NCBI GenBank assembly: GCA_902771225.1
Contig: CACXWH010000007.1
Coordinates: forward strand, 1 to 50,080
DNA length: 50,080 nt
Source of the DNA: an uncultured Methanobrevibacter sp.
GTDB taxonomy: Archaea; Methanobacteriota; Methanobacteria; Methanobacteriales; Methanobacteriaceae
Reading direction: 5' to 3'
Part shown: positions 1-30,841 of the stretch, in pieces
How positions within the stretch are numbered: the stretch's first letter is position 1
Layout of the letters: every line of letters begins with the position of its first letter
Program-made: the position numbers and the translations under genes
Notes under the pieces: model-generated
What the model was told of the DNA's origin: nothing
The model's database searches: none
What the model saw: the letters and a program-made list of their open reading frames with translations, nothing else

Positions 1-1059
1 TCAGTTTCATTAAGCTCATCTAAAAGAACCAAATCTTCACTAGAAACATAACAAATATCTTTTAATGCCTTAACTCTTAACATATCATTTAAAATTAATT
101 TATAAGATTCAACAAAACGATTAATAAAATCACTAGAATACTTATCACAATAAACAACATTTAAAAGATAATCATCATCTTTTTGAATAATTTCTACACT
201 TAAATCAGCAATCAAATCGCCCATATTATCTAATAAATCATTCTTATCAGCATTGTTGATAATTTCATCTGAATCTTTAGTCTTCATAACCCATTCTGGT
301 AAAAATTGGAATAGAATATCGGATTTAATTCCATATTTTTTTGCCAGTAACCTAAACGGATAATAATTATATCTTATAACCCCATAAACCATATCAGACA
401 GATATTCAAAACGGTCCCGGCCATTTTCAATAATATTAAATGAAACCTTTTCACTGCCTACAAAACGGGATAAGGTATAAGCAAAAACACTGCTAAATAA
501 AACATTCTCACTAACATTATGTTTTTCTATAAATGATTTAAGCAAATCTTTATCAATATCTAAATCAATTAAGGTGGATCCTGGACCATCAGCCAATACA
601 CTATCTAACAACTCACCAACATCATCAATATCAACTAGCATAGATTCATAAAATTCTTCTGCTCTACTATAATCATTATTTTCAGTAATTTGTTGATTAA
701 AAGCAGAAACTCTCAAGAAGGAATCATCCAAATCAACATCGCCGCCAACAAGAATAGTATGCAAATCTCGTTTAAAAACATCACTGGATAAAGCATCGAA
801 AATAATATGATGGAAAACAGCATATATAACAAAACCATCTTCTTCTTCAACAATTAAAGGAACATCAAAATTATCACTAACGCACATGCCTAAAATCGGA
901 TGTGCATCAAACATCACACCCAAAGCAGACCTAATATCCTCAACACTATACTCACTTGAAATATTCATTAATAAAGGAATTAAATAAGAATTTTCCTTAC
1001 TATTGGCCTTAATATCCAAGTAAACGTTTAACTGTGGTTCATTTAAAGGACAACCCTCA
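1..1059 (-). other. NRPS condensation domain C7 with two internal deletions
   Basis: C7 opens with CPLNEPQLNVYLDIKAN and keeps HHIIFDA. It is closely similar to C3 and C4 but lacks two internal blocks. About 38 residues are missing between FDVP and LIVEEE (near 865-875). About 28 residues are missing between NGRDRF and EYLSDMV (near 405-420), which removes the whole conserved SVGMFVNTLPLL motif. Both losses are multiples of three, so the frame stays open. The first residues of A7 (LLDELNET) lie at the window edge. Confidence 0.8.
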
Positions 1060-4000
1060 TCCAATGAGTATAAATTCAAATCAAAAGAAATATTTTCAAC
1101 ATTGTTTGCAATTGCATATGGGGTACGTAAACTTAAAATATCTCCTGCGGAAATATTAAAACCATCGAGATATGTTAATAATTTTATAGCAGTTAAAGAA
1201 TCACCGCCAAGATGAATAAAATCATCATAAACACCAATATTCTCAAGATTAAATACTTTTTCAAAAGCATCAACAATCAACTTTTCATCATTAGTCCTAG
1301 GAGCAACATACTCAACAACTAAAGAATCAAAATCAACTTCAGGTAAAGCATCCTTATCAACTTTACCATTAACAGTCAAAGGAACCTCATCTAACCTAAC
1401 AACATAAGATGGAACCATATAATCTGGTTTATGTTTAGCTACATAATCACAAACCAATTCTCTTAAATTACCCTCAAACTCCTCATCAGAAACTACAACA
1501 TATGCAACTAACTCATTATTACCATTATTATCCACAGTTTGAACGGTAACGTCCTCAACAAAATTAATACTCCTTATAACAGACTCCACATCACCCAATT
1601 CTACACGATTACCACGAATTTTAACTTGACTATCACGACGACCCACAATAGCTAATGTATTATCAGGCAACATCCTTACCATATCGCCTGTACGATACAT
1701 TATACTCCCATCAAATGGATTGTCAACAAATGATTTAACTGTTTCCTCTTCACGATTTAAATATCCATCAGCTATTTGATGGCCTGCCAGGTATAATTCT
1801 CCCACTGCACCATAAGGTACACGTCTACCTTCCTGATCTAAAATATAAGCTTTGGAGTTGTAATTTAAAATACCGATTGATGTGTCATCAGTTTTTTGGG
1901 ATATGTCTATTGATGTAATAAATGCAAATGCTTCTGTTGGTCCGTAGTCATCCATTACAATGTAGTTTTCTGGACTTTCGAATTTGCCTAATTTCTCTCC
2001 TCCTACTGATAAAACCTTCAATGAAGTATTATTAACATTTTGCATGAATAGTTTACTTACTTGGGTAGTTATGAATACATGCCCCACATTATTTCCAATG
2101 AGATACTCGTTTAATTTATCCATATCATATTTGATGTCTTCAGGTATGATGACTAATTGAGCACCAGAATATAAAACTTTGAATATTGACTTATATCCTG
2201 CATCAAAACCAATTGATGGATACAATGCATAAATATCACCATTCGTTAAGTTTTGAGCATCTGCATAATGGGCGGCTAAATTAAGAACAGATTTTCTAGT
2301 GATTTTTACACCTTTTGGGATGCCTGTAGTACCGCTGGTATAAAGAATGCCAGCCAAATTACCATAAACAACAGGCAAATATGATAAAGTACCAATACTC
2401 TCTTCAACAATACTAGAAACATTCACAAAAATACTATCGTTAGACAAATCATTTAAATGATTATAATTCTCATTGTCTGTAATGATAACTTTTGAATTTG
2501 AATCTTTTATCATGAACTCAATTCTTTCATCTGGAAGATTATTGTCTATAGGAACAGGAACAGCACCAATAGACAATACTGATAAAACACTGAATAAATA
2601 CCATTCAGAACGTCCACATACAAAGGCAACACAGTCATCAACATTAACTTCGGCTTGTTTTAATAATTCAACAATCTTAAATGCGATAAAAGCACCCTCA
2701 CCATAAGAATAAGAAATATTATCAAATGAAACAAGCGGATTGTCAGGATATTTGGATAAGTTATCATTAAAAGCATCTAAAACATCAGCATAATCCAAAT
2801 CATGATTAGTATCATTAAAACTATCTAAAAGTTCAACATCATCATTAGAAATATAATCAATATCACTCAAGGTTTCTTTATCTAATAATTGAACTAATAT
2901 TTCTTTTTTATCTAATAATTGAACTAATATTTCTTTAAATACATTTACAAAACGTTCCGCTGTGTCCTGACTAATTATATCATCATGATTCAAACTAACA
3001 AGAAAACCATCATCTAAATCATTAACAAAACATAACAAATCAGAAACACTATCTGCTCCATCACTAAAGACAATCTCATCACCAACACTAGTTGTATCAT
3101 TCAAATCATAATTATACTCAAAACTAACACTATTGGATAAACCAAACTCACTAGCAAGCAAGCGGAAAGGATAAACACTATTGCCCATAGATTCTAAAAT
3201 CAAATTAGAAACGCCTGATAAAAAATCACCAACAGAAGCATTAGTACAATCAACAAGAATAGGGATAGTACGAACAAACATGCCTAAAGCATCCTGACTG
3301 TAATCCTCATGACGACCATTCACAGTAAAAGTATAATAAACCTTATTCCCACCAATAAAACGTGAATAAGTATAAGCGAAAACAGCATTCAAGAAACTAC
3401 TAACAGTAATACCTTTATCATGAACAAAAGACAAAATATCCTCACGTACGCCACGAATAGGGAGACTAACACTACCTGCACAGCCGTCAACATCATCCAA
3501 CAAAGAAGAAACCTCATCAATATCAGCGAACATCTCCCTAAAGAAACCATAAGCAGCATCATAATCTGGCTTAAACTGTGAATCAAAAGAATCACGACTA
3601 GCATAAACAAAACCTAAATCAACCTTACCATCCAATTCTCCACTCAAAGCAAGTCCTAAATCCCTATTAATAATAACACGTGAAGTAGCATCACTAATAA
3701 TATGATGCATATCATAAACAATAAACATACCATACTTATTATCTACTATAAAGAAACGAGCTAAAGATTTTCCCAAATCAAAAGGTCTAGTTAAAGTAGA
3801 ATAATCATCTACATTTGTAATACTTATTTCTGGATAACTGTCACAAATCAATAAGGGCAAATAGCCAGTATCTAAAACACGACCTTTCAAAATAGGATGC
3901 TTCTCAATCAAGGCATGAATTGCATCTTTAAGTTCATCAACAGAATAATCACCAGTACATTCAAAAATGCCTGCAGTAGAATAAGCAGTATCTTTATCAT

Positions 4001-4424
4001 GAACTTTCTCATCTAGGTAAACACCTAATTGAGGTTCAGATAAACAGCAAACAATATTATCAAATTTATAATTGGCAATGAACCTTAACTCCTCTTTAAT
4101 ATTATCCAAGAAAATATCACTCAAATAAGTATTTTGGGCATAATCACCATTAATAACATAAGAATCACCAACGCGTGAAACATTAAACGTGATACCATAA
4201 GATTCAGAGTCTAATACATCACTACTAATCTCACCATAACCGTTATCATCTTCAGACAAATAATAATTAATAGACTCAAACAACTCATTTTTAAATACAA
4301 ATTCACTGCTTAAGAAATTAAAAGTAACTGGGCAATGTTTAAACTCCAATTCTTCAGTAGTATATATTAAAGAAGCATAATTCAAACCTAAATTATTAAC
4401 ATCCTTAAATGCCCTCTTAAGACT
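1..4424 (-). CDS. NRPS continuation: rest of E5, module 6 and C7 (partial, runs off left edge)
   Basis: This stretch is open in the -1 frame relative to the upstream 5244-residue NRPS reading frame. It has no start codon of its own. It begins with SLKRAFKDVNNLG, which directly continues the epimerization domain, and reaches the CPVTFNFL motif that ends E domains. It then encodes C6 (HHIISDA), A6 (TSGTTGIPKG, DDYGPTE, YRTGD, NGKVDK), T6 (LGGDSL near 1205), C7 (HHIIFDA) and the opening LLDELNET of A7 at the window edge. Two unusual features are a 10-residue duplication between C6 and A6 and two deletions in C7. If the frameshift is real, this part is not translated in frame. If it is a sequencing error, it is the C-terminal part of one protein of at least 6700 residues. 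Confidence 0.9.
1060..4049 (-). other. NRPS module 6 (C6-A6-T6)
   Basis: C6 starts with CCLSEPQLGVYLDEK and has HHIISDATS and ALGMFVRTIPIL. It is distinct in sequence from C3, C4, C5 and C7, as expected for a C domain that accepts a D-configured donor from E5. A6 has IGFDAGYK, TSGTTGIPKG, DDYGPTEA, YRTGD and NGKVDK (pocket code by eye D-A-K-V-S-G-D-A-F-K). T6 is HLGGDSLTAI. A 30-bp tandem duplication lies in the C6-A6 linker. Confidence 0.8.
2877..2936. repeat. 30-bp perfect tandem duplication in NRPS C6-A6 linker
   Basis: The unit containing TCTAATAATTGAACTAATAT occurs twice back to back (2877-2906 and 2907-2936). On the coding strand it duplicates ten residues (KEILVQLLDK), keeping the frame. 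No other linker in this synthetase has the doubled form. Confidence 0.9.
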
Positions 4425-7400
4425 ATAAACACATCATAACCGTTATACACTTTAACAGGAACAGGATATTGGCTTGTAAACCATCCCACTGTTCTGTTAA
4501 GATTAGCAACACTATCATCACGACCATAAGACTCACGATTAAAAATAATATCTTTATTATATGTTTTTTTATATGCTCTGCTGATTGCTAAAGCTAAATA
4601 TTCATCTTCAGACAACATCAACAAATTATCCGCATCAAAATCTATATCCACATTAAAAGAGAATATATTTGTTGGGCCCATAATAAGTGAATCATCCAAT
4701 AAAGCATTAACACTTAACCAATGCTGTTTTTCATCATCAGAAATATTATCAACTAAATTTTTAACATTATCTACCCACATCTTATATGGATAAGGTTTTA
4801 CAATATCAATTCTTTCATTTTTAAGCAATTTATAATAAATATTTGTCAAATCACTAAGCAGAATATGCCAGCTCACACCATCAATAATCAAATGATGAAT
4901 AACAATCAAAAGATAATCTTCATCATCATAATGAACTAAATTAACATCTAACAATTTATTTTCAATATCCAGGGATTGTGTAGATTTCACAAAAATATCG
5001 CGCATATTTTCTTCTAAATCATCATTAATGTTATATTCATTTATATTACAGACTGTTGAATTAATTGGCAGAATTTCCTGTTTTATATTATTGTTAATGA
5101 TTTTATAGTGTGCTCGTAACATATCATGAATATTGCATAACTCATTAAAGGACTTCTGCAAAATATCCCTATCACAATCAACATTAAATTTTAAAACAAA
5201 TTCTTGAGCATAATTATTCAAATTAACCTGATCAAAGAAATAACTTTGAATAGGAAGTAAATCAACAACACCTTCCATAGTGTCATAATGTATTGTTTCT
5301 ATGTTTTCATTAACATGTTGTGCAATCAAATAAGGTTTTTTATAATTCAATATGTCTCGTGCACTGCAATGAATACTATTTTTCTCCAAAAGTGAACTAA
5401 CACGAATAGCACTAATAGAATCTCCACCCAACTGCACAAAATCATCATATAAACCAATATTTTTTTGATTAAATACACTTTCAAAAATATTGACAATATG
5501 TTTTTCAGTTTCGTTTGTTGGTGCAACATATTCTGCACGTAAAACATCAAAATCAACATTTGGCAAAGCATGTTTATCTACTTTACCATTAACAGTTAAA
5601 GGAACCTCATCTAATTCAACAACATAAGATGGAATCATATAATCTGGTTTACGATTAGCCACATAATCACAAACAAATTCTCTTAAATTACCTTCAAAGC
5701 CATCATCATACACTACAACATATGCAACTAACTCATTATTACCATCATTATCCACAGTTTGAACAGTAACGTCCTCAACAAAACCGATACTCCTTATAAC
5801 AGATTCCACTTCATCAAGCTCCACACGATTGCCACGAATCTTGACCTGACCATCACGACGACCAACAATACCAAGACTGCCATCGGGTAAAAACCTTACC
5901 ATATCACCAGTCTTATAAATACGATCATAACCCACATCATCATCAAAGGAATTATCGAAAAATACTTTGGAATTTTCATCTTCCCTATTTAAATATCCTT
6001 TAGTTAACTGAGCACCTGATAGATATAATTCTCCTACAGCACCTAAAGGTACACGACGACGTTCACTATCTAAGACATAACCTTTAACATTACTAACAAA
6101 ATGACCAATACTGGAATTATCATTACGTCTATTAGCAAATATGCTAGTAGATATAGCTAAATTTTCAGATGGACCATATGACTCAAATGGTCCAATAGAA
6201 TCAGGTGCATTCAACTCACCTAACTTCATACCACCAAAACATAAAAGCTTAATAGTGGTCTCCATACCACTTTCAGCAAACAACTTACCCACCTGACTTG
6301 TAATATAGGTATGAGTACAATTATGTTCAACAAAATAATCATTTAAAGCTTTTAAATCCAACCTAATATCTTCCGGCACCACATACAATGACCCACCAGA
6401 AACAATTGGTGAATACAAAGCATGAACATGCATATCAAATACATAAGAACAGTGCATACCATAAACATCATCAGGGGTGAAATCAGTTTCATTCACATAC
6501 CATAAAACAAAATTATTAATAGCCTGACGGCTAACTAAAACACCTTTAGGAGTACCTGTAGTTCCACTTGTATATAAAACACAGGCAACATCGTCCACAT
6601 CAACACTAACATTATCCAAATGATTCAAACTACTAATTTCTCCATTAAGACTATCTACATTTAAAATATTAATATCAAGTCCATTATCTAAAATAATTTC
6701 ACGCATGCGCTCTTCAGATTTATTACTAACTATAACAACTTTAGATTTTGTGTCTTTTAACATTAGAACAATACGTTCATCCGGATAATCTGTATCAATA
6801 GGAACATAAACACCACCCATTGACAAAACACCCAAACTAGCTAATAAAAACCACTCAGAACGCTCAACAAACAAAGCAACAAAATCCTGCCGAGCAACAC
6901 CCAAAACATTTAAACCATGGGCAATTTCATTAGCAATAAAAGCACTCTCGCCAAAAGTAAAAGACTTATTTTCATAGCCTACCAAGACATTATCTTCATA
7001 TTTTTCAAGATTATCATTAAATGCATCTAAAACATCACAATATTCAAAAGTATGATCAGTATCATTAAACTCATCTAAAAGAACCAAATCATCACAAGAA
7101 ATATATGAAATATCACTTAATCCCTTAACATTTAACATCTCATTTAAGATAAATTTATAAGATTCAACAAAACGATCAATAAAAACACTAGAATATTTAT
7201 CGCAATAAACAACACTTAAAAGATAATTATTGCCTTTCTGAATAATCTCCACATTTAAATCAGTGTTCAAATCACTCATACCATTTAATAAATCATCCTC
7301 ATCATCATCTCTAATAGTATCATCAAAATCATTAGTATCAATAACCCAATCAGTTAAAAATTGGAAAATAATATCAGACTTAATATCATACTTATTTGCC

Positions 7401-8319
7401 AATAATCTAAATGGATAATAATTATATCTCATAACCCCATAAACCATTCTAGAGACATACTCCATAAAAGAGTCAATATCCTGATTTTTACAATTAACCA
7501 ATAAAGGTAAAGTATTAACAAACATGCCTACAGAATCAAAATTATCAAATCTGTCACGGCCATTTTCCACAATATTAAATAAAACATTATCACTACCTAC
7601 AAAACGAGACAAAGTATAAGCAAAAACACTACTAAAGAAAACATTCTCACTAACATTATGTTTTTCTAAAAATGAATTAAACAATTCATTATCAATATCC
7701 AAATCAATTAAGGTAGAACCGGGACCATCAGCCAAAACACTATCTAACAACTCACTAGCATCATCAGCATCAGCTAGCATAGACTCATAAAATTCCTCTG
7801 CTTCAGCATAATCACTACTTCCAGTAATTTGCTGATTAAAAGCAGAAACCTTCAAGAAAGAATCATCCAAATCAACAACTTTACCTTCAAGAATATGCTG
7901 TAAATCTTGTTTAAATATTGCTTTTGATAAACCATCGAAAATAATATGGTGGAAAACAGCAAATAAATTATAATCCTCATTGTTTTCAACTATTAAAAAT
8001 CTACATAAACTTTCAGACAAATTAAATGGTTTAGATAAAAATTCCACAATAAATTCATCATCTACTTCTTCAGATACAACATCAAATAATGGTTTAGAAC
8101 CCTTAACTAAATAAGGAACATCCTCCTTATCACTAACACTCATACCCAAAATAGGATGAACATCCAACATACTCTCTAAAGCACTGATAATTGCATCAAT
8201 CTTATATCTTCCAGATATATTCATTATAAGGGGAATAAGATATACATCGGTTTTATCATTGGCTTTAATATCCAAATAAACATTTAATTGAGATTCGTTT
8301 AAAGGACAACCATCATCTA
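4050..8319 (-). other. NRPS module 5 with epimerization domain (C5-A5-T5-E5), frameshifted
   Basis: C5 has HHIIFDG and SVGMFVNTLPLL. A5 has VFDMHVHA, TSGTTGTPKG, ESYGPSEN, YKTGD and NGKVDK (pocket code by eye D-M-H-T-C-G-S-A-I-K). T5 reads LGGDSISAIR; the GGDSI form is typical of carrier domains that precede E domains. E5 follows with LLPIQSYFF, HHLIIDGVSW and NRTVGWFTSQYPV, then CPVTFNFL after the frameshift at about 4424-4427. An active E5 would give a D-residue at position 5 of the assembled chain. It is the only E domain in the window. Confidence 0.85.
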
Positions 8320-11300: not shown

Positions 11301-14300
11301 TCCTTTTTATCATTAGCCCTTATATCCAAGTAAACATTTAATTGGGGTTCATTTAAAGGACAACCGGAATCCAAAGAATAAACATCCAAATCAAAAGAAA
11401 TATTCCTAACACTACCTGCAATAGCATAAGGAGTACGCAAACCTAAAACATCACCAGCAGAAATATTAAAACCATCAAGATAAGTCAACAATTTAATAGC
11501 AGTTAAAGAATCACCGCCAAGACGAACAAAATCATCATAAATACTAATATTCTCTCGACTAAACGCTTTTTCAAATGCGTCAACAATTGCTTTTTCAGTT
11601 TCATTACTAGGGGCAACATACTCAACAGATAAACTAGCAACATCCACATTAGGCAAAGCACTTTTATCAACTTTACCATTAACATTCAAAGGAATATGAT
11701 CCAATTTAACAACATATGAAGGAACCATATAATTAGGTTTATGCTCAGCCACGTAATTACAAACAGAATTCAATAATTCAATATTATCTAAATCAGTAGA
11801 TAATACCACATATGCTATTAATTCTCTAATACCATCATTATCTAATGTCTGAACAGTAACGTCTTCTACAATATCAATATTTCTTATAACAGATTCTACT
11901 TCACTGAGTTCTACACGATTACCTCTAATTTTAACCTGAGTATCACGACGGCCTATAATATCAATACTGCCATCAGGTAAAAATCTACCCATATCACCAG
12001 TACGATACAATCTGTTAAAACCCTCATCATCCTCATAAGGATTATCAACAAAAGCATGATTAGTTTCCTCGTCACGATTCAAATAGCCACGAGCAAGCTG
12101 ATAACCACCAAAATATAACTCACCAACAGCACCAACAGGAACACGCCTTAAATCATTATCTAAAATATAACTTTTAACATTAAAATTAACAAAACCCACA
12201 GAAGAGGGATCCACTTTATCAGAATTATCAATTGAACAAACATAAGCAAATGACTCAGTTGGACCATAACTATCAATAACGCGATAAGCTTCGCTACAAA
12301 CAAAATCACCTAACTTTTCACCACCAATATGTAAAACATCCAAAGAAGTATCATCAACACTCTTCATAAACAACTTAGCTACTGGAGTAGGAATGGCGGC
12401 ATGAGAAACATTATGGTCAATAAAATAATCATTTAACTTCAACATATCCAATTTAATCTCATCAGGTATAACAGCCAAACATGCGCCTGCAGTGATAACT
12501 ACATCAATAACGAAAGTGCTCATATCAAATCCAATTGCAGAATACAAACCATAAACATCATTTTCATCCAAGCTATGCATCTCAATATAATTTTCAGAAA
12601 CGTTAATTAATGATTTACGAGTATTTTTAACACCTTTGGGAACTCCGGTAGTACCACTAGTATACAAAATACAAGCCAAATCACCATAAACAACAGGTAA
12701 ATACTCTAAACTACCAATATTCTCATTAATAATATTGGAAATATTTAAAAGAACACAATCACTTATTTCATCAGCCCTATTATAAGTTTCATCACTAACA
12801 ATAACAACTTTACAATCACTATCTCCTAAAATATAACTCAAACGTTCATTAGGCAAACCATCATCTAAAGGAACAAAAACACTACCTACTGATAAAATAC
12901 CCAAAACAGAAAATATATACAATTCACTACGAGGCACTAAAAAACCAACACAATTTCCCGATTCAACACCCAAATCAGTTAAAGATTTGGCAATTTTGTC
13001 TGCTATAAAAGCACCCTCACCATAAGAATAAGAACGATTCATATATGTAACCAAATCCTTATCTGGATTCTTAACTAAATTAGTATTAAAAGCATCTAAA
13101 ACATCATCATAGGGAAAATCATGCTCAGTATTATTAAACTCATCTAAAAGAACCAAATCATCACTAGAAACATAAGATATATCACCCAACGCCTTAACAC
13201 ACAACATATCGTTTAAAATAGCCTTATAAGATTGAACAAAACGATTAATAAAATCACTAGAATATTTATCAGAATAAACAACACTTAAATGATAATTATT
13301 GCCTCTCTGAATAATTTCCACACTTAAATCAGCGATTAAATCACCCATATTATCCAATAAATCATTCTCATCAATATCCCAAATTGTATCATCAGAATCA
13401 TTATTGTCTCTAACCCATTCAGGTAAAAATTGGAAAATAATATTGGACTTAATATCATACTTATTTGCCAGTAATCTAAATGGATAATAATTATATCTCA
13501 TAACACCATAAACTATATTGGATACATACTCCATAAAAGAGTTAACATTCTGATTTTTACAATCAACCAATAAAGGCAACGTATTAACGAACATGCCTAC
13601 AGAATCAAAATTATTAAATCTGTCTCGGCCATTTTCTACAATATTAAATAAAATCTTTTCACTGCCTACAAAACGAGACAAGGTATAAGCAAAAACACTG
13701 CTAAATAAAACATTCTCACTAATATTATGTTTTTCTAAAAATGAATTAAACAATTCATTATTCATATTCAAATCAATTGAAGTAGATCCTGGACCATCAG
13801 CTAAGACACTATCTAATAATTCAACAGTATCGTCAATATCGGCCAGCATAGATTCATAAAATACTTCTGCTTGAGTATACTCATTACTTTCGGCAATTTG
13901 CTGGTTAAAAGCAGAAGCCTTCAAAAAGGAATCATCCACGCCAACAACTCTTCCGCCAAGAATAGTATATAAATCCCGTTTAAAAACATCACTGGATATA
14001 GCATCGAAAATAATATGGTGGAAAACAGCATATAAAACAAAACTACTTTCTTCTTCAACAATTAAGAACCTGCATAAACTATCGTGCAAATCAAATGGTT
14101 TTGTTAAAAATTGAGTAATAAAATCATTATTAACATCAGATTCAACAATAATAGAAGGTTCAGATCCTTTAATCAAATAAGGAACATCAAAATCATCACT
14201 AACACACATGCCTAAAATCGGATGGACATCAAACATCACACCCAAAGCAGTCCCAATATCATCAACACTATACTCGCCCGAAATATTCATAAATAAAGGA

Positions 14301-17300
14301 ATTAAATAAGCACCTTCCTTATCATTAGCCTTAATATCCAAGTAAACATTTAATTGGGGTTCATTTAAAGGACAACCCTGATCTAAAGAATAAATATCTA
14401 AATCAAAAAAAATATCTCTAACACGATTAGCAATTGCATATGGGGTACGTAAACTTAAAATGTCGCCTGCAGAAATATTAAAACCATCAATATAAGTCAA
14501 TAACTTAATAGCAGTTAATGAATCACCACCCAGATGAATAAAATTATCATAAATACCAATATTTTTCTGATTAAACACTTTTTCAAATGCATCGACAATT
14601 TGTTTTTCAGTTTCATTACTGGGTGCAACATATTCAACAACTAAAGAACTAAAATTAACTTCAGGTAAAGCACCTTTATCAACTTTACCATTAACAGTCA
14701 ATGGAATACTATTTAACAGGACCACGTATGAGGGAACCATATAATCCGGTTTACAATCTAAAACAAAAGCCTTAATGTCCTCTTCAATATTTTCCTTATC
14801 ATTATTATTTGAAACAACATATGCTACTAATTCATTATTGGAGTTGTTTTTAACAGTTTGAACTGTAACATTCTCTACATAATCCAATTCATGAATAACT
14901 GCCTCAATCTCAGACAATTCAACACGATTTCCTCGAATTTTAACCTGACTATCACGACGACCTACAATGCCGAGACTTCCATCAGGTAAAAAACGCACCA
15001 TATCGCCAGTACGATATAAAACACCATAATCTCCATCATTAAAAGGATTGGAAACAAAAGCATGATTTGTTTCATCATCGAGATTCAAATATCCATCAGC
15101 TAGCTGATATCCAGCAATATACAACTCACCTACTGCACCTACAGGGACACGCCTTAAATCTTCATCCAAAACATAAAGCTTAACATTAAAATTAACAAAA
15201 CCCACAGAAGAGGAATCTAACTTATCATTATTATCCATTAAACTAATAAATGTAAATGACTCAGTAGGACCGTAAGCATCAATTACATGATAATCTTTAG
15301 GCATTATGAGATTACCTAATTTCTCACCACCAACAAGCAAAATATCCAAAGAAGTCTCGTCAACATTTTCCATGAACAATTTTCCCACTTGGGTAGTCAC
15401 ATAAGTATGTGAAACATTATGGCTGATGAAATAATCATTTAACTTTAAGATATTAAACCTAATCTCTTCAGGTATAACATTTAAACAGGCTCCGGCACAC
15501 ATAACTACATTAATAGCAAAATTACCTACATCAAAACCAATATTAGAAAACATTCCATAAACATCGCCATCATCCAAATCATACTCGGCAATATAATATT
15601 CACAGACATTAATTATGGATTTGCGAGTAATTTTAACACCTTTAGGAACACCGGTGGTCCCACTAGTATATAAAATACAAGCCAAATCACCATAAACAAC
15701 AGGTAAATGATTTAAACAACCAATAGCATCATTAAACAAATCAGAAATATTTAAAATAATGCCCTCAAATAAACTATTCACTCTATCATACGTTTCATCA
15801 CTAGCAATAACAACGTGAGAATCACTATCCTCTAAAATAAAGCTTAGACGATTATCTGGAAGTTTATCATCTAAAGGCACATAAATGGCACCTGCAGATA
15901 AAATACCTATAATACAAAACATGTACAATTCACTGCGCGGAACTAAAAAACTAACACAATCACCAGGTTCAACACCAAAATCGATTAGTAATTTTCTGAT
16001 TTTATCTGCAATGAAAGCTCCTTCAGCATAACTGTAAGAAATATTATTATAAGAGACAAGGGCATTATCTGGATACTTAACTAAATTATCGTTAAATTCA
16101 TCCATAATATCATTATAAAATAAATCATGCTCAGTTTGATTATAATTATCTAAAATAGTTAAATCAGAAGACCCAATATAATTAATTTCATTTAATTTAT
16201 TATGGCTTAACATTCCTTCTAAAATTAATTTATATGAATCTACAAAACGCTTAATGAATTCATTTGAATATTTACTTGAATATTGAACTTTAATTTCAAA
16301 ATTATTATTACTATTATTTTGAATCAAAAAGTTGAAATCATTAAAGACATCATGCTCTAATTCTTCTATCTCTAAACCGGATATATTAAATAAATCATGA
16401 TTATACTGGAAACTAATATCAGAATTCAAATCATAATCATTAACTAAAATACGAAAAGAATACAAATCATACTTCATAACAGAATTAATTAAACCAGAAG
16501 AATATTTAATAAATGATTCAATGTCCTGATTTTCACAATCAATAAGCACTGGAAGTGTTTTAACAAACATTCCCACTGAATCGGATAAATTAACATGGCC
16601 TCTACCATCTTCAATGAGATTAAACATTATTTTATCGGACCCTGCAAATCTTGACAGTGTATATGCAAACACGGATGCGAAAAACTGATTATAAGTAATA
16701 GAATTGTCTTTTAAAAAAGAAGATAAATCCATCTTAAAATAGTCAGTATAGGCATTTTCCCCATCACCATTAACACTATCCAATAAATCATTAACTTCGT
16801 CTCTTTCAGCTAACATTTCATCAAAGAAATCCCTTGCATCATCGAGATATTCTGAAGTAATACTTTTTTCATAAGAAATTTGTCTTAAAACACCATCATC
16901 AACAATATTCTCAGCATTATTGTTTAAAATGGATAATAATGAATTTACCAAGACCTTTATTGAAGTTCCATCAAAAATTAAATGATGACAATCGATACAT
17001 AAAATGGATTCACTTTCAATAATTAAAAACCTGGATAAAGATTCCCCTAAATTAAATGGCCTTACAAAAGAATCCAAATCATTTATAAATCCATTTTTAA
17101 TTTCAGGTTCACTATCAAAAATAAAAGATAAATCACCCTCATCATTTACAACATGGGCTTTTAAAACTGGATATAAATCAAACAGCTTATAGATAGCACT
17201 TCTAATTTCATTCTCTGAATAATTCTGATTAAACTTAATTTTAAATGGATTATTGTAAATCAGATCCATTTTTTTAACTTGTTCATCAAGATAAACATTT

Positions 17301-20122
17301 AATTGGGATTCAGATAAAGGACAACCATCATTAAAAGTATAATTAACATCTAATGACGAATATGAGTTTAAATTAAATTTAATATGATTTGCAATCTTTA
17401 ATGGTGTAGCAAGTTCGATTAATTCGCTTGAAGAAATATTAACGCCTAACTGATTATTTAATATTAACTGTAAATTCATTGCAGATAGAGAATTTCCACC
17501 CAATCCTACAAAATTATCATCAATTAAAACAGACTCACAATTTAAAACATCCCTAAAAGCATCAACAACAATACTCAGAATCCCATCATCAATTTCAACC
17601 TCGGCCAATTCAGGAATATTCTTTTTAAGTTCAAATTTATCTATTTTACCATTTGCATTTAATGGAATTTTATCCAATTTAATAAAAACAGAAGGAACCA
17701 TATATTGTGGCAATTCATCTTCAAGAGCAAATTTAACGTCATCTATACTTAAATCGCCGAATGTAGTATAATAAGCAATGAGATTATCATTATCTGTATC
17801 TAAATATATTTCTTTTAAATTTTCAAATCTTTCTAAGATTTTTAAGATTTCTTCAGATTCTATACGAAATCCTCTAACAGATAACTGATCATCTTTCCGT
17901 CCGATAATTTCAATTTTACCATCAAAATTATAAAAACCAATATCTCCTGTACGATATAATAATTTATTATACTCACAATCAGAATAAGGATTATTGACTA
18001 TGACTTTTTTTGTTAATTCTGGACTATTTATATATCCCGGAGTCAAGTAATCGCATGAAATGCAAATTTCACCAGGAACTCCAACCGGAAGCAAATTATT
18101 ATTTTTATCTAAAATATATGCCCATGTATTGGCCATGGATTTACCGATAGAATTATCCTTTTTTGCTGTATTGCAGATATTTGCAGTTGCCATTATTTCA
18201 GTCATACCATAAGCATTAACTATTTTCGTAAAATCATTACTCTCGGGAAGAGCGTTTAATTTAGACCCGCAACAGACCATATAATCTAGGTTGATATTTT
18301 CATTTTCTAAAATAGGAATGCCCAAGGATGGCGGCAATATTATATCATGAAAATGATTATCTTTAAGTATTTCAATTAATTTTAAACTATCTCGGCGTTC
18401 ATCATCATTAAAAATCCTACAAGATTTGCCATCATATAATGCCCAAAATATTCTAAAAGATAAAATGAAACTGAAGCTGGCGTAACAACCTATCAAATCA
18501 CAATCAAAAGAATCAAAAATATTGTTAAATGCAACAGCAGTACCAATTAGCTGTTTATTAGAATGGGCCACTCCTTTGGGAAGACCTGTAGTACCTGATG
18601 TAAATAAAATAGCAAAATCACTACCCTGCACAAGATCAAACTCACAATCATCCTCCAAATTCAAATCACCATAATAAATAATATCTACGTCAAATGGTGA
18701 TTCGTCCAATAATTCTTCTGTTGTAATAATAAAATCAGCTTTACCAATATTTAACATGTGTTCAATACGTTTAATGGGATATGAGGGGTCAATGGGAATA
18801 AATATTGCACCAATTTTATTTAATGCTAAAACCAATTCTGGGAAACGATAATCACGAGGAAGCATTAAAGCCACAATACTATCTAGGCCAATACCATAAT
18901 TCTCTTTTAAGTCATTAGCAATTGAATTACTTGAACTATCTAATTCTTGATAGCTAATCTGATTTACCCCATCATCAATTGCAAGTTTATCAGCCAATTT
19001 CTTAGCATTGCTCTGAAATACTTTACCAAAGGAAGTGTTTTTATCAAAAGGAATTGTTTTGCCTTTGGAAAATTCAGATATGGTCTTTTTTTCATTATCT
19101 GATAAAATATCAATATCCTTACACATTATATTTGGTAACTCTGAAGCACTGTTTATTAAAGATTTAATGTTTGCTGCCATATGTTCCATATAACTATTAG
19201 AAAACAGGTCTGCATTATAAATTAATTCCAAATAATCCTCATAAATATTTAAAGTTAAAGCAGAACCTTCCCCATTAACTACTTCTACATTTTTCAAATC
19301 AGTGAAATCATAAACAGAATAAAAACAGGCATAATCAGTATAATTTTCTATGTTTACCATGGAATGTTGGATTGCAGAATCATAAACATCATTAACCTGA
19401 TTTAGAAAATCATTGAAACTTATATCCTCATTATATTCAATTTTAAGTAATGTATTTATATCTAAGTGATTATTTTTTGGAATGCTGGTTTTTAAAAGGC
19501 AACCTTTGGATTGGTTAATTCTGGATAAGTATAATGAAAATATGCCAGTTATGAAATTAAATTTATTGTCTTTTATTTGATTTAAAGGTATTTTTATATT
19601 TTTATAATTGTTGGAGCCTATATTATAGAATTTTACATAATCCTCACTATTGGAAAGATTATTTTCCCAGAAATCTGAATCCTTTTTAAAATCATTAGAA
19701 TTTAAATACTTATCCAAATTATGATGATGAGTGATTAGATTTTTCAGTGAAAAATTGTTATTGTTAAATATGTTATAAAAACTGTTAATTGAGGTGTAAT
19801 CAAATATTAATGGATGGATATTTGCTAAAATTGTTAGTTTGTCTTTATTTTTTAAAACTAAAAATTTATACAAATCTGTATTGGTAATATCTTTAAAAGT
19901 AAAACTAAAAAATGAATTTATTTTTGTTTCGAGGTCTTTTTTATTTAATTGGGATACGTCATCATATTCGTAAATTATTTTATTGTCTGTGCAGTATGGC
20001 TTTAAATTTTCATTAAATCTGATATTTAATGATTTAAACTTATTGAAACTTTTATCAATGGAATTTTTATTCATATATTTTATTTCAAAAATAAATTTAA
20101 TTTCATTATTTTGTTTTACCAT
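4388..20122 (-). CDS. Giant non-ribosomal peptide synthetase, modules 1-5 (frameshifted at its 3' end)
   Basis: This 5244-residue protein assembles a peptide on carrier domains without the ribosome. Visible order: C-like domain with no catalytic His (1-340), A1 (344-830), T1 (Ser near 875), C2-A2-T2 (931-1910), C3-A3-T3 (1916-2915), C4-A4-T4 (2917-3935), C5-A5-T5 (3939-4940) and an epimerization domain from about 4944. Every A domain has TSGTTGxPKG, a YGPTE-like motif, a Y(R/N/K)TGD motif and the NGK lysine. Every T domain has LGG(D/N)S, the phosphopantetheine serine. The start ATG follows GGTGATCTA, an excellent archaeal ribosome binding site. The frame stops at 4388, but E-domain sequence resumes in the -1 frame from about 4424, so this and the 1-4424 segment are one synthetase. 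No phosphopantetheinyl transferase or thioesterase is in the window. NRPS genes are known in rumen Methanobrevibacter and are thought to come from bacteria by transfer. Confidence 0.95.
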   Translation of the reverse strand: MVKQNNEIKFIFEIKYMNKNSIDKSFNKFKSLNIRFNENLKPYCTDNKIIYEYDDVSQLNKKDLETKINSFFSFTFKDITNTDLYKFLVLKNKDKLTILANIHPLIFDYTSINSFYNIFNNNNFSLKNLITHHHNLDKYLNSNDFKKDSDFWENNLSNSEDYVKFYNIGSNNYKNIKIPLNQIKDNKFNFITGIFSLYLSRINQSKGCLLKTSIPKNNHLDINTLLKIEYNEDISFNDFLNQVNDVYDSAIQHSMVNIENYTDYACFYSVYDFTDLKNVEVVNGEGSALTLNIYEDYLELIYNADLFSNSYMEHMAANIKSLINSASELPNIMCKDIDILSDNEKKTISEFSKGKTIPFDKNTSFGKVFQSNAKKLADKLAIDDGVNQISYQELDSSSNSIANDLKENYGIGLDSIVALMLPRDYRFPELVLALNKIGAIFIPIDPSYPIKRIEHMLNIGKADFIITTEELLDESPFDVDIIYYGDLNLEDDCEFDLVQGSDFAILFTSGTTGLPKGVAHSNKQLIGTAVAFNNIFDSFDCDLIGCYASFSFILSFRIFWALYDGKSCRIFNDDERRDSLKLIEILKDNHFHDIILPPSLGIPILENENINLDYMVCCGSKLNALPESNDFTKIVNAYGMTEIMATANICNTAKKDNSIGKSMANTWAYILDKNNNLLPVGVPGEICISCDYLTPGYINSPELTKKVIVNNPYSDCEYNKLLYRTGDIGFYNFDGKIEIIGRKDDQLSVRGFRIESEEILKILERFENLKEIYLDTDNDNLIAYYTTFGDLSIDDVKFALEDELPQYMVPSVFIKLDKIPLNANGKIDKFELKKNIPELAEVEIDDGILSIVVDAFRDVLNCESVLIDDNFVGLGGNSLSAMNLQLILNNQLGVNISSSELIELATPLKIANHIKFNLNSYSSLDVNYTFNDGCPLSESQLNVYLDEQVKKMDLIYNNPFKIKFNQNYSENEIRSAIYKLFDLYPVLKAHVVNDEGDLSFIFDSEPEIKNGFINDLDSFVRPFNLGESLSRFLIIESESILCIDCHHLIFDGTSIKVLVNSLLSILNNNAENIVDDGVLRQISYEKSITSEYLDDARDFFDEMLAERDEVNDLLDSVNGDGENAYTDYFKMDLSSFLKDNSITYNQFFASVFAYTLSRFAGSDKIMFNLIEDGRGHVNLSDSVGMFVKTLPVLIDCENQDIESFIKYSSGLINSVMKYDLYSFRILVNDYDLNSDISFQYNHDLFNISGLEIEELEHDVFNDFNFLIQNNSNNNFEIKVQYSSKYSNEFIKRFVDSYKLILEGMLSHNKLNEINYIGSSDLTILDNYNQTEHDLFYNDIMDEFNDNLVKYPDNALVSYNNISYSYAEGAFIADKIRKLLIDFGVEPGDCVSFLVPRSELYMFCIIGILSAGAIYVPLDDKLPDNRLSFILEDSDSHVVIASDETYDRVNSLFEGIILNISDLFNDAIGCLNHLPVVYGDLACILYTSGTTGVPKGVKITRKSIINVCEYYIAEYDLDDGDVYGMFSNIGFDVGNFAINVVMCAGACLNVIPEEIRFNILKLNDYFISHNVSHTYVTTQVGKLFMENVDETSLDILLVGGEKLGNLIMPKDYHVIDAYGPTESFTFISLMDNNDKLDSSSVGFVNFNVKLYVLDEDLRRVPVGAVGELYIAGYQLADGYLNLDDETNHAFVSNPFNDGDYGVLYRTGDMVRFLPDGSLGIVGRRDSQVKIRGNRVELSEIEAVIHELDYVENVTVQTVKNNSNNELVAYVVSNNNDKENIEEDIKAFVLDCKPDYMVPSYVVLLNSIPLTVNGKVDKGALPEVNFSSLVVEYVAPSNETEKQIVDAFEKVFNQKNIGIYDNFIHLGGDSLTAIKLLTYIDGFNISAGDILSLRTPYAIANRVRDIFFDLDIYSLDQGCPLNEPQLNVYLDIKANDKEGAYLIPLFMNISGEYSVDDIGTALGVMFDVHPILGMCVSDDFDVPYLIKGSEPSIIVESDVNNDFITQFLTKPFDLHDSLCRFLIVEEESSFVLYAVFHHIIFDAISSDVFKRDLYTILGGRVVGVDDSFLKASAFNQQIAESNEYTQAEVFYESMLADIDDTVELLDSVLADGPGSTSIDLNMNNELFNSFLEKHNISENVLFSSVFAYTLSRFVGSEKILFNIVENGRDRFNNFDSVGMFVNTLPLLVDCKNQNVNSFMEYVSNIVYGVMRYNYYPFRLLANKYDIKSNIIFQFLPEWVRDNNDSDDTIWDIDENDLLDNMGDLIADLSVEIIQRGNNYHLSVVYSDKYSSDFINRFVQSYKAILNDMLCVKALGDISYVSSDDLVLLDEFNNTEHDFPYDDVLDAFNTNLVKNPDKDLVTYMNRSYSYGEGAFIADKIAKSLTDLGVESGNCVGFLVPRSELYIFSVLGILSVGSVFVPLDDGLPNERLSYILGDSDCKVVIVSDETYNRADEISDCVLLNISNIINENIGSLEYLPVVYGDLACILYTSGTTGVPKGVKNTRKSLINVSENYIEMHSLDENDVYGLYSAIGFDMSTFVIDVVITAGACLAVIPDEIKLDMLKLNDYFIDHNVSHAAIPTPVAKLFMKSVDDTSLDVLHIGGEKLGDFVCSEAYRVIDSYGPTESFAYVCSIDNSDKVDPSSVGFVNFNVKSYILDNDLRRVPVGAVGELYFGGYQLARGYLNRDEETNHAFVDNPYEDDEGFNRLYRTGDMGRFLPDGSIDIIGRRDTQVKIRGNRVELSEVESVIRNIDIVEDVTVQTLDNDGIRELIAYVVLSTDLDNIELLNSVCNYVAEHKPNYMVPSYVVKLDHIPLNVNGKVDKSALPNVDVASLSVEYVAPSNETEKAIVDAFEKAFSRENISIYDDFVRLGGDSLTAIKLLTYLDGFNISAGDVLGLRTPYAIAGSVRNISFDLDVYSLDSGCPLNEPQLNVYLDIRANDKKDAYLIPLFMNIPAKYSIEDIKSALNVMFDAHPVLCMCVSDDFDVPYLIKGSMPSIIVESNVNDDFITEFLTKPFDLYDSLSRFLIVEEEDSFVLYAVFHHIIFDAISNDVFKRDLFTVLDGGVVDLDDSFLRASAFNQQIAESNDYDKAEEFYESMLADIDDTGELLDSVLADGPGSSSINLDIDYDLLDSFLEKHNVSLNILFSSVFAYTLSRFVGSEKVSFNIVENGRDRLGNYDSLGMFVNTLPLLIDCKNQDICSFVEYVSDLVYGVMRHNYYPFRLLAKKYDIKSDVLFQFLPGWVMDNDNSDVNIIKSVRENIDSDDGDLLDDMSDLIADLSAGIIQKGNDYLLSVVYSDKYSGAFIDRFVESYKFILNDILNFEELSDISYVSCDDLALLDAYNDTAHVLDYVDVLDAFNDNLIKYPNNILMKCEDKSYTYGESAFIINEIASMLNSCGVSRQDPVILFVPRSEWFLFASMAVLSCCCAYVPIDENYPDNYIKFMIEKCNSKTIITTDAFQKRVDDIIGDIAGDFDVINVSCLENSAGSLLKLDYVDSSFDDVACIHFTSGTTGTPKGVLATRLGIYNMVEFYVDVAGFGRDDVHGVFSSLGFDVTLAMYSSIVVGGATTIVPSEVRLNIDELNKFFIRHGVTHSIISTPVAKLFCENIRDTSIKHIQAIGEKLGHIVPPKEYVLSDVYGPTETVLSITSTDVVDKIDDSSVGFINYNTKGYILDKNQNKVPCGAVGELYISGYQISKGYINNPDESEKAFFANPFDGDIKGYERMYNTGDVVRLLPDGSIGFINRRDNQVKIRGNRVELLDIESVIREIDYVDDVTVQTVKNNGNNELAAYVVLSSDLENIELLDRVQDYVRDQKPDYMVPSYVVELDKIPLTVNGKVDKSALPKVDLNALHTEYVAPVNENEKIIVNAFEKVFNQDKIGIYDDFIRLGGDSLTAIRLLSYIEDFNINVADILSLKTPKLIAENLNKFPIDWNIYSLDDGCPLNESQLNVYLDIKANDKTDVYLIPLIMNISGRYKIDAIISALESMLDVHPILGMSVSDKEDVPYLVKGSKPLFDVVSEEVDDEFIVEFLSKPFNLSESLCRFLIVENNEDYNLFAVFHHIIFDGLSKAIFKQDLQHILEGKVVDLDDSFLKVSAFNQQITGSSDYAEAEEFYESMLADADDASELLDSVLADGPGSTLIDLDIDNELFNSFLEKHNVSENVFFSSVFAYTLSRFVGSDNVLFNIVENGRDRFDNFDSVGMFVNTLPLLVNCKNQDIDSFMEYVSRMVYGVMRYNYYPFRLLANKYDIKSDIIFQFLTDWVIDTNDFDDTIRDDDEDDLLNGMSDLNTDLNVEIIQKGNNYLLSVVYCDKYSSVFIDRFVESYKFILNEMLNVKGLSDISYISCDDLVLLDEFNDTDHTFEYCDVLDAFNDNLEKYEDNVLVGYENKSFTFGESAFIANEIAHGLNVLGVARQDFVALFVERSEWFLLASLGVLSMGGVYVPIDTDYPDERIVLMLKDTKSKVVIVSNKSEERMREIILDNGLDINILNVDSLNGEISSLNHLDNVSVDVDDVACVLYTSGTTGTPKGVLVSRQAINNFVLWYVNETDFTPDDVYGMHCSYVFDMHVHALYSPIVSGGSLYVVPEDIRLDLKALNDYFVEHNCTHTYITSQVGKLFAESGMETTIKLLCFGGMKLGELNAPDSIGPFESYGPSENLAISTSIFANRRNDNSSIGHFVSNVKGYVLDSERRRVPLGAVGELYLSGAQLTKGYLNREDENSKVFFDNSFDDDVGYDRIYKTGDMVRFLPDGSLGIVGRRDGQVKIRGNRVELDEVESVIRSIGFVEDVTVQTVDNDGNNELVAYVVVYDDGFEGNLREFVCDYVANRKPDYMIPSYVVELDEVPLTVNGKVDKHALPNVDFDVLRAEYVAPTNETEKHIVNIFESVFNQKNIGLYDDFVQLGGDSISAIRVSSLLEKNSIHCSARDILNYKKPYLIAQHVNENIETIHYDTMEGVVDLLPIQSYFFDQVNLNNYAQEFVLKFNVDCDRDILQKSFNELCNIHDMLRAHYKIINNNIKQEILPINSTVCNINEYNINDDLEENMRDIFVKSTQSLDIENKLLDVNLVHYDDEDYLLIVIHHLIIDGVSWHILLSDLTNIYYKLLKNERIDIVKPYPYKMWVDNVKNLVDNISDDEKQHWLSVNALLDDSLIMGPTNIFSFNVDIDFDADNLLMLSEDEYLALAISRAYKKTYNKDIIFNRESYGRDDSVANLNRTVGWFTSQYPVPVKVYNGYDVFIVLRGHLRMLII
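8320..11371 (-). other. NRPS module 4 (C4-A4-T4)
   Basis: C4 is close to C3 (CPLNEPQLNVYLDIRAND, HHIIFDA, SLGMFVNTLPLL). A4 is clearly different from A3: LGFDVTLA, HFTSGTTGTPKG, DVYGPTET, a YNTGD variant of the A7 motif, NRRDNQVKIRG in place of GRRD, and NGKVDK. T4 is RLGGDSLTAIR near residue 3887. The pocket code by eye is D-V-A-S-Q-I-V-L-S-K. The combination of a shared C domain with a divergent A domain suggests A-domain exchange between modules. Confidence 0.8.
11372..14384 (-). other. NRPS module 3 (C3-A3-T3)
   Basis: C3 opens with CPLNEPQLNVYLDIKAND and carries HHIIFDA, with Ala replacing the usual Gly, and SVGMFVNTLPLL. A3 has IGFDMSTF, TSGTTGVPKG, DSYGPTES, YRTGD and NGKVDK. T3 is RLGGDSLTAI near residue 2872. 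The pocket code by eye is D-M-F-A-H-G-S-A-Y-K. The start of C3 is identical to that of C4 over 44 bases (14334-14377 and 11322-11365), evidence of recent module duplication or conversion. Confidence 0.8.
14385..17338 (-). other. NRPS module 2 (C2-A2-T2)
   Basis: C2 begins with CPLSESQLNVYLDE and has an intact HHLIFDG motif and SVGMFVKTLPVL (C5-type motif). A2 keeps the amino-group Asp (IGFDVGNF), with TSGTTGVPKG, DAYGPTES, YRTGD and NGKVDK. T2 is HLGGDSLTAI with Ser near residue 1866. The pocket code aligned by eye is D-V-F-T-L-G-A-T-F-K. I cannot match it to a known substrate with confidence. C2 is the most diverged of the C domains except C6 and the degenerate first one. Confidence 0.8.
17340..20122 (-). 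other. NRPS module 1: degenerate C domain, A1, T1 (loading module)
   Basis: The N-terminal C-like part (about 340 residues against a usual 430-450) carries HPLIFDY where active C domains have HHxxxDG, so the catalytic second His is Pro. A1 has LFTSGTTGLPKG, NAYGMTE, LLYRTGD, GRKDDQLSVRG and NANGKIDK, so it should be able to adenylate. At the A4 position it reads SFIL instead of GFDx: the Asp (GrsA Asp235) that binds the alpha-amino group is Ile. Known A domains without this Asp usually load non-alpha-amino substrates such as aryl, hydroxy or keto acids. T1 is GLGGNSLSAM. My alignment by eye gives the pocket code I-L-R-I-V-C-A-A-T-K, which I cannot assign. Confidence 0.75.
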
Positions 20123-20339: not shown

Positions 20340-20865
20340 GACGAAGAACTAAAAAAATCGAAAGAAAGCAAAAAAACATCCAAGTCAGAGTAATCAAAGT
20401 AAAATTAAAAACCGGACAAACAGAAATACTATTTACAAATTTACCAAATGAAATAGCAACGCCTTAAGAATTAAAACAATTATATTGTGAAATATGGAAA
20501 ATAGAAACCGATTACGACAGATTAAAAAACAAATTATACATCGAAAAATTCAGCCGAAGAGAGGAACCATAATCGAACAAGACTTCTACCGCCATATAGT
20601 CATTAAACATACCAATAATAAAACACGGCAAAGAACTAAAAATAATACGAAAACCAAAAGAAACAGTAAAATACACCTACGAATATCATCCCAACATCAA
20701 CATACTCATCGAAGAAATCAAATATCAACTACCAAGACTCCTAACAGACAACCAAGACGAAATACAAAAGTAATAAAAGAAATAATGGAAATTAGTTCCA
20801 AAGAATTAGTAGCAACTAAAATACTGCACGAACACACGTATAAAGAGATAAAAAAATTGGAATAA
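20340..20865 (+). pseudogene. Decayed IS4-family transposase, C-terminal remnant
   Basis: Read across three frames, the segment gives QVRVIKVKLKTGQTEILFTN, then after an in-frame stop ELKQLYCEIWKIETDYDRLK, then IIEQDFYRHIV, then KYTYEYHPNINILIEEIKYQ, and finally EIMEISSKELVATKI. The second piece matches the IS4-family YREK signature: Tyr, Glu and Lys are present at the right spacing but the Arg is Ile. At least two stops and three or more frame changes rule out activity. The N-terminal catalytic part is missing and I could not find terminal inverted repeats. Open reading frames inside it are reading-frame debris. The remnant sits between the divergent NRPS and MATE genes. Confidence 0.8.
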
Positions 20866-20983: not shown

Positions 20984-21014
20984 AAAATTGTAAACAAAAT
21001 ACGTGAAGAGAAAA

Positions 21015-30833: not shown

Positions 30834-30841
30834 GTGATAAG

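Follow-up and report, generated by a model that had tools for sequence, protein, structure and literature searches.

The window considered here, i.e., the whole stretch of DNA analysed, is 50,080 bp long and corresponds to the entire contig C7 of genome G000 (G000:C7), a Methanobrevibacter-type genome whose assembly comprises 2,359,332 bases in 122 contigs, with a completeness of 99.88% and a contamination of 1.48%. Positions 1-20122 of the minus strand encode an NRPS, which runs off the window because the latter is the whole contig; the extension of the gene beyond the window had already been proposed in a first-pass annotation of this DNA. Pfam and motif scans gave the domain order degenerate starter C, A1-T1, C2-A2-T2, C3-A3-T3, C4-A4-T4, C5-A5-T5-E5, C6-A6-T6, C7. 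The AMP-binding, AMP-binding_C, and Condensation models scored above the cut-off in each of three pieces of this region, and PP-binding did so in the first two (19.7 vs. 20.8 bits in the third). The motifs of six A, six T, and six C domains, one E domain, and one degenerate N-terminal C-like domain were counted in the window, arranged in the repeated C-A-T modules of a multimodular NRPS; those of the A, T, and most C domains are intact. This inventory agrees with that of the first-pass annotation (seven condensation-type domains plus one degenerate start domain, six A-T pairs, and one epimerization domain, which we locate in module 5), and the domain search confirmed the presence of NRPS domains. 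The single protein of more than 6,700 residues that was also claimed does not hold: ORF1 (4388-20122, minus strand) stops after 5,244 aa at an in-frame TAG within the E domain, and coding goes on in a second frame of 1,476 codons (3-4430, minus strand), open to the contig end.

The degenerate N-terminal condensation-like domain (19072-20122; all the domains of the synthetase lie on the minus strand) scores 41.9 bits with Condensation (cut-off 30.6) and has lost the second catalytic His (HPLIFDY). The starter adenylation domain A1 (18032-19018) lacks Asp235 and has the code ILFIVCAATK. The following C domains carry the motifs HHLIFDG (module 2, 16196-17323), HHIIFDA (module 3, 13202-14374, and module 4, 10166-11359), and HHIIFDG (module 5, 7133-8308), and their modules include A2 (15086-16087, code DVFYLGATFK), A3 (12080-13081, code DMFAHGSAYK), A4 (9032-10039, code DVLIQIVLSK), and A5 (5990-7015, code DMHYCGSAIK). 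The E domain of module 5 (4060-5275, lower end approximate) has an intact HHLIIDG motif and is interrupted by the frame break; its Condensation matches cover 4709-5275 and 4442-4567, and it continues in the second frame. The latter encodes the C domain of module 6 (3099-4046, HHIISDA), A6 (1758-2765), whose code DAKFSGDAFK is the same as those of G040 A3 and G028 A1, and the C domain of module 7 (348-1180, upper end approximate). The code positions follow the GrsA numbering; the K in tenth place is a rule-based addition that was not taken from the sequence.

A six-frame reading revealed a transposase-like stretch with several stops on the plus strand (20384-20780, ends approximate), presumably of the IS4-like family, located between the NRPS and a MATE-family efflux transporter (21003-22406, plus strand; MatE 174.1 bits, TIGR00797 233.3 bits). 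The transporter gene is divergent from the NRPS gene, and its product is a candidate exporter. Farther along the window, positions 29163-31864 encode a PseF/PseG-like fused protein and then a NeuB/PseI-like synthase, all below curated cut-offs, which possibly represent a nonulosonic acid pathway in a methanogen.

Contig C7 also encodes aIF-1A, HypD, and pyruvate carboxylase subunit B, all above curated cut-offs, as well as Rio1-like and tRNA Cm56 methyltransferase-like proteins with scores below them; the NRPS is therefore located in archaeal DNA. The typical carriers of NRPSs are bacteria, and a bacterial contamination or a mis-binned contig would have spoken against the genuine methanogen NRPS claimed at the outset. 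Such an origin is hardly credible, however, given that aIF-1A (over its cut-off) and the Rio1-like and Cm56 methyltransferase-like proteins share the contig with the NRPS, that homologues of its starter domain occur in 14 out of 67 genomes (G000 counted), and that the G+C content along the contig is 26-34%.

These 67 genomes, G000 included, form the genus set used throughout; a single further relative, RUG11990, came from a scan of genome contigs. Condensation domains were found in 47 of the 67 genomes, which does not fit the earlier statement that archaeal NRPSs are rare. The open NRPS frames of the relatives measure about 7,200-10,816 aa (at least 8,210 aa among the Condensation matches listed, and 10,816 aa from the starter-domain search). 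The window synthetase belongs to a known and common NRPS type of the genus. In the available passages of the respective papers, 687 clusters are reported from 125 archaeal genomes (PMC8241843), NRPSs are described in M. ruminantium M1 (PMC2812497) and M. arboriphilus (PMC5467289), and seven proteins of at least 5,000 residues are assigned to Methanobrevibacter sp. YE315 (PMC11573180). The rumen Methanobrevibacter clusters, as far as covered by the same passages of PMC8241843, resemble the present case in genus, in the occurrence of several clusters per genome, and in the existence of close genomes with and without NRPSs; unlike the present work, they include no analysis of PPTases.

Starter domain, missing 3' end, and other NRPSs of the genome

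The search with the window starter domain (E up to 1e-10) retrieved two of the 14 genomes weakly (G015 and G022), and the identity outside the window gene is 32-52%. The HHxxxDG motif is lacking in all 14 readable members of the family (alignment of 15 sequences, the fifteenth being cut short; three are near-identical). Wherever the A domain directly follows the starter domain, it lacks Asp235, having I, V, or M instead (8/8: the window, C3, G014, G016, G040, G003, G050, and RUG11990); in G008, G023, and G028, the A domain does not directly follow. The first A domains of three reductase-type NRPSs (C4, C48, and G057) are also devoid of Asp235, and those of C85 and C28 keep it. The Asp235 residue of A domains binds the alpha-amine of the substrate. 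Since A1 lacks this residue and the starter C domain is dead, an acid-type starter is plausible, and the starter substrate is likely, judging from the sequence, to be an acid without an alpha-amine. To this extent the lipo- or aryl-peptide proposed by the first-pass annotation stands; the D-residue of its product cannot be assumed, the E domain being frame-broken and the enzyme that primes NRPSs, 4'-phosphopantetheinyl transferase (PPTase), being reduced to a remnant in this genome (see below). The conservation of a dead starter C domain together with an Asp235-less A1 points to a shared starter chemistry that is open to testing. The predicted structures of the starter domain and of the TE-like piece described below had a mean pLDDT of 35.5 and 42.5, respectively, and both were unusable.

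One and the same starter NRPS occurs in the genomes of three species, at L096 (G060:C53), L097 (G003:C41), and L098 (G059:C86), with a DNA identity of 98.6-98.7% across about 5 kb. These near-identical copies lie on short contigs and reflect either a recent transfer or cross-binning.

The 10,816-aa NRPS of G008 (2.27 Mb, one contig; L036/L037, C1:811708-844155), encoded in one frame with nine A-domain motifs, shares with the window gene the dead starter, the TE-like end, and E domains followed by HHxxxDA C domains. It differs from it in its single open frame, in its three E domains, and in the presence of a PPTase in the genome; in addition, its first A domain has Asn at position 235 and does not stand directly after the starter domain, whereas A1 of the window does.

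Contig C46, which starts within a T domain and reads C-A-T-TE, is 71.9% identical to the window modules. Its TE-like end has a GYSIG motif, matches Thioesterase below the cut-off (E 0.0059, 17.3 bits vs. 26.4), and is 46% identical to the C-terminus of the G008 NRPS, which begins with the starter domain of the window. The other open NRPS ends, those of C85 and C12, belong to another gene: they align at 82% to the two portions of a single 5,199-aa G016 frame, leaving some 1,160 aa in the middle unseen, and C46 aligns to that gene at 25-28% only. C46 was thus assigned to the window gene by elimination, and the join with C7 is deduced, as the ends of the two contigs were found to share no k-mers. 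On sequence grounds, C46 is probably the 3' end of the window gene, which would comprise at least eight modules, with at least A7-T7 falling in the gap.

G000 contains 29 Condensation and 23 AMP-binding matches in total; all of the former and 19 of the latter lie on C3, C4, C7, C12, C28, C46, C48, and C85, and the remaining four AMP-binding matches fall in 436-566-aa frames on C9, C10, C29, and C38. If C7+C46 and C85+C12 are single genes, the genome holds six NRPS systems with 19 A domains. The NRPSs of C4, C48, and C12 terminate with an NAD_binding_4 reductase. On C4, a phosphatase-NRPS-MATE island (L013:4186-16364, G000:C4) is flanked by a radical-SAM gene on one side and by a CBS-domain gene on the other; it seems to have been inserted or moved, because these two genes directly adjoin in G003 and G046. 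Beside the C3 NRPS, what reads as an ABC transporter ATPase (L012:3424-3924) has a stop in LLCDEPT*ALDS, and the frame of its RUG11990 counterpart is open.

Frame break and C-domain deletions

The TAG that closes ORF1 (read from 20122 to 4388) lies at 4390-4388, and the second frame (4430 to 3) carries on the same protein; the synthetase is therefore not encoded by one uninterrupted reading frame, and the break (4388-4440, minus strand) falls inside the E domain. A segment of about six residues (e.g., DVSLMN) preceding the block that reads DVYSLKRAF in the window is absent from it and present in 8/8 E domains of relatives, i.e., those matching the search pattern (three from G008, two from L041, one from L042, and two from L043). 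Compared with these domains, the net loss, counted by hand from the printed sequences, is 19 nt, which is not a multiple of three; a shorter in-frame loop combined with a small indel would add up to the same number, so that a natural difference compounded by a minor sequencing fault is possible. In view of a second frame that stays open for 1,476 codons and embeds conserved domains, one could also think of two separate subunits, or of a programmed frameshifting joining the two frames. Both are highly improbable, as the break lies within a domain and has no recognisable slippery site, and all eight E domains compared are single-frame and possess the segment absent here.

The last C domain of the window cleanly lacks, in frame, blocks of 38 aa (junction at about 857) and 28 aa (junction at about 407), and its remainder is close to paralogous domains; the second missing block contains GMFVNTLP. 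The HPxx-HH spacing is 30 in this domain vs. 62-69 in 34 others and 124-128 in four whose insert is ancestral; the corresponding values for GRDR-YP are 20 here and 47-48 in 11 others (survey of 72 HHxxxD[AG] domains, those not counted lacking one of the motifs). Relative to its intact relatives, the window gene thus bears inactivating lesions of the kind found in pseudogenes, namely a net change of -19 nt in the E domain and the loss of 38 + 28 aa in the last C domain.

The C28 NRPS also has a frame break, with a net change of -14 nt (hand count), which is its sole lesion. Other candidates were rejected: HHxxxDA in place of HHxxxDG is not a sign of decay, this variant being common in relatives, including the one-contig G008; the last C domain of the C3 NRPS carries an insert of about 60 aa that is common to RUG11990 and hence ancestral; and the tail of the C28 NRPS, which reads T-E-C with no A domain, does not result from deletions, as intact 3,112-3,130-aa orthologues (G039, G042, and G052) align to its end.

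Overall, two frame breaks in 22,515 aa of G000 (eight loci) compare with one in the 83,724 aa covered at 29 relative loci (p of about 0.12, not significant alone), where one relative break due to a run of N was left out and the relative loci were picked by domain hits, not at random. No frame break was observed in the seen parts of four out of six NRPS systems (C3, C4, C48, and C85+C12). Relaxed selection should speed up evolution, but the first 1,960 aa of the C28 synthetase showed no acceleration, the G000 branch being 0.156 vs. 0.254 for G052. Since this part is not evolving faster than in its orthologue, any loss of function would be recent.

PPTase remnant

The carrier domains of NRPSs need priming by a PPTase. 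Probing G000 with PF01648 and with a profile of 12 PPTase sequences of the genus, both at E up to 10, did not retrieve any such enzyme. PF01648 scores over the cut-off in 50 of the 67 genomes, and the genus profile reveals a PPTase in 50/67 genomes at E below 1e-80; three of the 50 are partial (G025, G034, and G058), and four contain a single stop within the match (G011, G024, G043, and G046), G024 and G046 being NRPS carriers. NRPSs and PPTase occur together in 46 genomes, NRPSs only in one (G000), PPTase only in four (G011, G043, G055, and G058), and neither in 16, among which G027 and G033 show weak PPTase fragments (Fisher p of about 7e-11 for the cross-tabulation). G000 is the sole one of the 47 NRPS-bearing genomes without a detectable Sfp/AcpS-type PPTase.

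The start of the PPTase gene often overlaps the stop codon of a phosphatase gene in the relatives, and the phosphatase copies of G000 are SpoIIE-type by Pfam. In G016, the phosphatase-PPTase pair adjoins the NRPS orthologous to C85+C12. On C85 of G000 (L011:204-245, minus strand), an ATG and 14 codons, MIRLAYYNVENLDF, overlap the phosphatase stop as in G016; the PPTase consensus at this site is MIKLAYCNVENLDL. A blastn comparison of L011:205-257 with G016 gave 86.8% identity over 53 nt (E 1.9e-10), and the independent PPTase signal begins at codon 4, codons 1-3 being shared with the end of the phosphatase gene. Past the 14 codons, the similarity stops and stop codons appear. About 65 nt beyond the remnant lies a hairpin with GTGCAA/TTGCAC on its two sides (DNA fold z -3.6); we take it to look like an IS200/IS605-type end. 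A like hairpin sequence is found upstream of the G051 phosphatase, and an OrfB_IS605 gene near the PPTase of G016. Contig C85 ends 204 nt after the remnant, and contig ends may be chimeric. The insertion of an element alone would imply that the other part of the PPTase gene lies elsewhere; it was searched for in the assembly and not found.

No PPTase was found after the phosphatases on C4, C48, and C60, at the M50-peptidase site (L112) used in several relatives, or at the G004-type site. We considered, and dropped, an excision of the PPTase on C4 from between the phosphatase and the neighbouring radical-SAM gene: the latter has no such phosphatase at its side in 29/29 relative loci compared, and in G003 and G046 it adjoins genes situated beyond the NRPS island of G000. 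C4 therefore represents a differently placed copy, and C85 is the informative site. On C12, a shrunken remnant (L009:10018-10778) was found of a gene that is open beside the PPTase of G004 (L102); we assume that it is a membrane-protein gene and that the adjoining reading is anti-sigma antagonist-like.

These observations could also be explained if the NRPS were functional, an intact PPTase being hidden in an assembly gap or mis-assembled at the C85 end and the break in the E domain being a small assembly or sequencing error on a naturally shorter loop. The 122 contigs, the position of the contig breaks within NRPS repeats and beside the PPTase remnant, the absence of rate acceleration in the C28 NRPS, and the intact A, T, and most C motifs would agree with this. 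Against it, G000 is 99.88% complete and contiguous at both the M50-peptidase and the G004-type sites, where no PPTase is present; the PPTase is visible in 18/18 NRPS-bearing genomes that are less than 90% complete, where about three misses would be expected; and simple homopolymer errors do not account for net changes of 19 and 14 nt. We regard this explanation as unlikely, although it is the one to be taken most seriously beside a true loss. Very unlikely, in turn, is the priming of the carriers by a non-homologous or very divergent enzyme that would let the NRPS work without an Sfp/AcpS-type PPTase: the carrier motifs are intact and four of the six systems have no frame break, in keeping with it, but the canonical PPTase is kept in 46/46 other NRPS-bearing genomes. 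To our knowledge, no non-homologous enzyme priming carrier domains has been described.

Proposed silencing of the NRPS repertoire

The pathway appears to be in the course of being lost, because the gene is broken in two and only a PPTase stump is left in the assembly. In our opinion, the window gene likely encodes an NRPS that was functional in the past; the genome would have lost its PPTase recently, and decay would be setting in. With somewhat less confidence, we lean towards reading the whole as a case in which a PPTase deletion at a mobile-element-like end has naturally silenced all the NRPSs of an archaeal genome (six systems and 19 A domains), caught early, with the synthetases starting to break. 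The confidence given to a recent loss, and that left to the assembly explanation, take into account that four out of six systems are unbroken, that the C28 NRPS is not accelerated, and that the excess of frame breaks is not significant.

According to the domain logic, the starter A domain of the intact synthetase would load a carboxylic acid without an alpha-amine, to which about seven residues would then be added, position 5 being occupied by a D-residue; the thioesterase-like end on C46 would free the peptide, and the neighbouring MATE pump would export it. Once the PPTase gene had been cut to its first 14 codons beside the mobile-element-like hairpin, the NRPSs of G000 would have stayed unprimed, in the apo form expected from such a reduction of the gene. 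The frame breaks in the E domain and in the C28 NRPS and the two in-frame deletions in the last C domain would have followed. We infer that G000 is devoid of PPTase activity and that the lesions are later than its loss; the window NRPS probably no longer works in this genome.

In M. ruminantium M1, as described in the accessible sections of PMC2812497, the NRPSs mru_0068 and mru_0351 are likewise large archaeal NRPSs with a MatE exporter nearby, and serine phosphatases and an anti-sigma antagonist also stand beside the NRPS genes. Unlike the window gene, which is frame-broken, probably has at least eight modules, and is accompanied by a PPTase remnant, these NRPSs have two and four modules, and the PPTase mru_0514 is kept (PMC2812497, same sections). 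The genes mru_0351 and mru_0514 and two MatE genes show positive values (1.06-1.64) in a lauric-acid transcriptome table of PMC5816558, in the portion available.

No report on Methanobrevibacter NRPS pseudogenes, nor on an NRPS-rich archaeon without a PPTase, was found among open-licence PubMed Central papers. The sfp defect of Bacillus subtilis 168 is reportedly a small frameshift. G000 can be likened to this strain, whose NRPS genes are present and silent owing to the defective PPTase, as stated in the available part of PMC11124408. It differs from it in being an archaeon, in having lost most of the PPTase gene, and in the structural lesions of its NRPSs.

If the PPTase has truly been lost, G000 would be a natural knock-out of all its NRPS products at once, and for this reason its comparison with PPTase-bearing relatives would test the role of the peptides in gut life. 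It would also represent a missing step towards the many sister species devoid of both NRPSs and PPTase. Furthermore, counts of biosynthetic gene clusters in methanogens may overstate the number of products, and a check for the PPTase would be a cheap filter. Broken PPTase-like fragments were also detected at G027:C8:75-197, G033:C106:6675-6875 (weak, E 0.005), and G023:C43:1042-1601; since they include the NRPS-less genomes G027 and G033, the loss of the PPTase may be a recurrent event.
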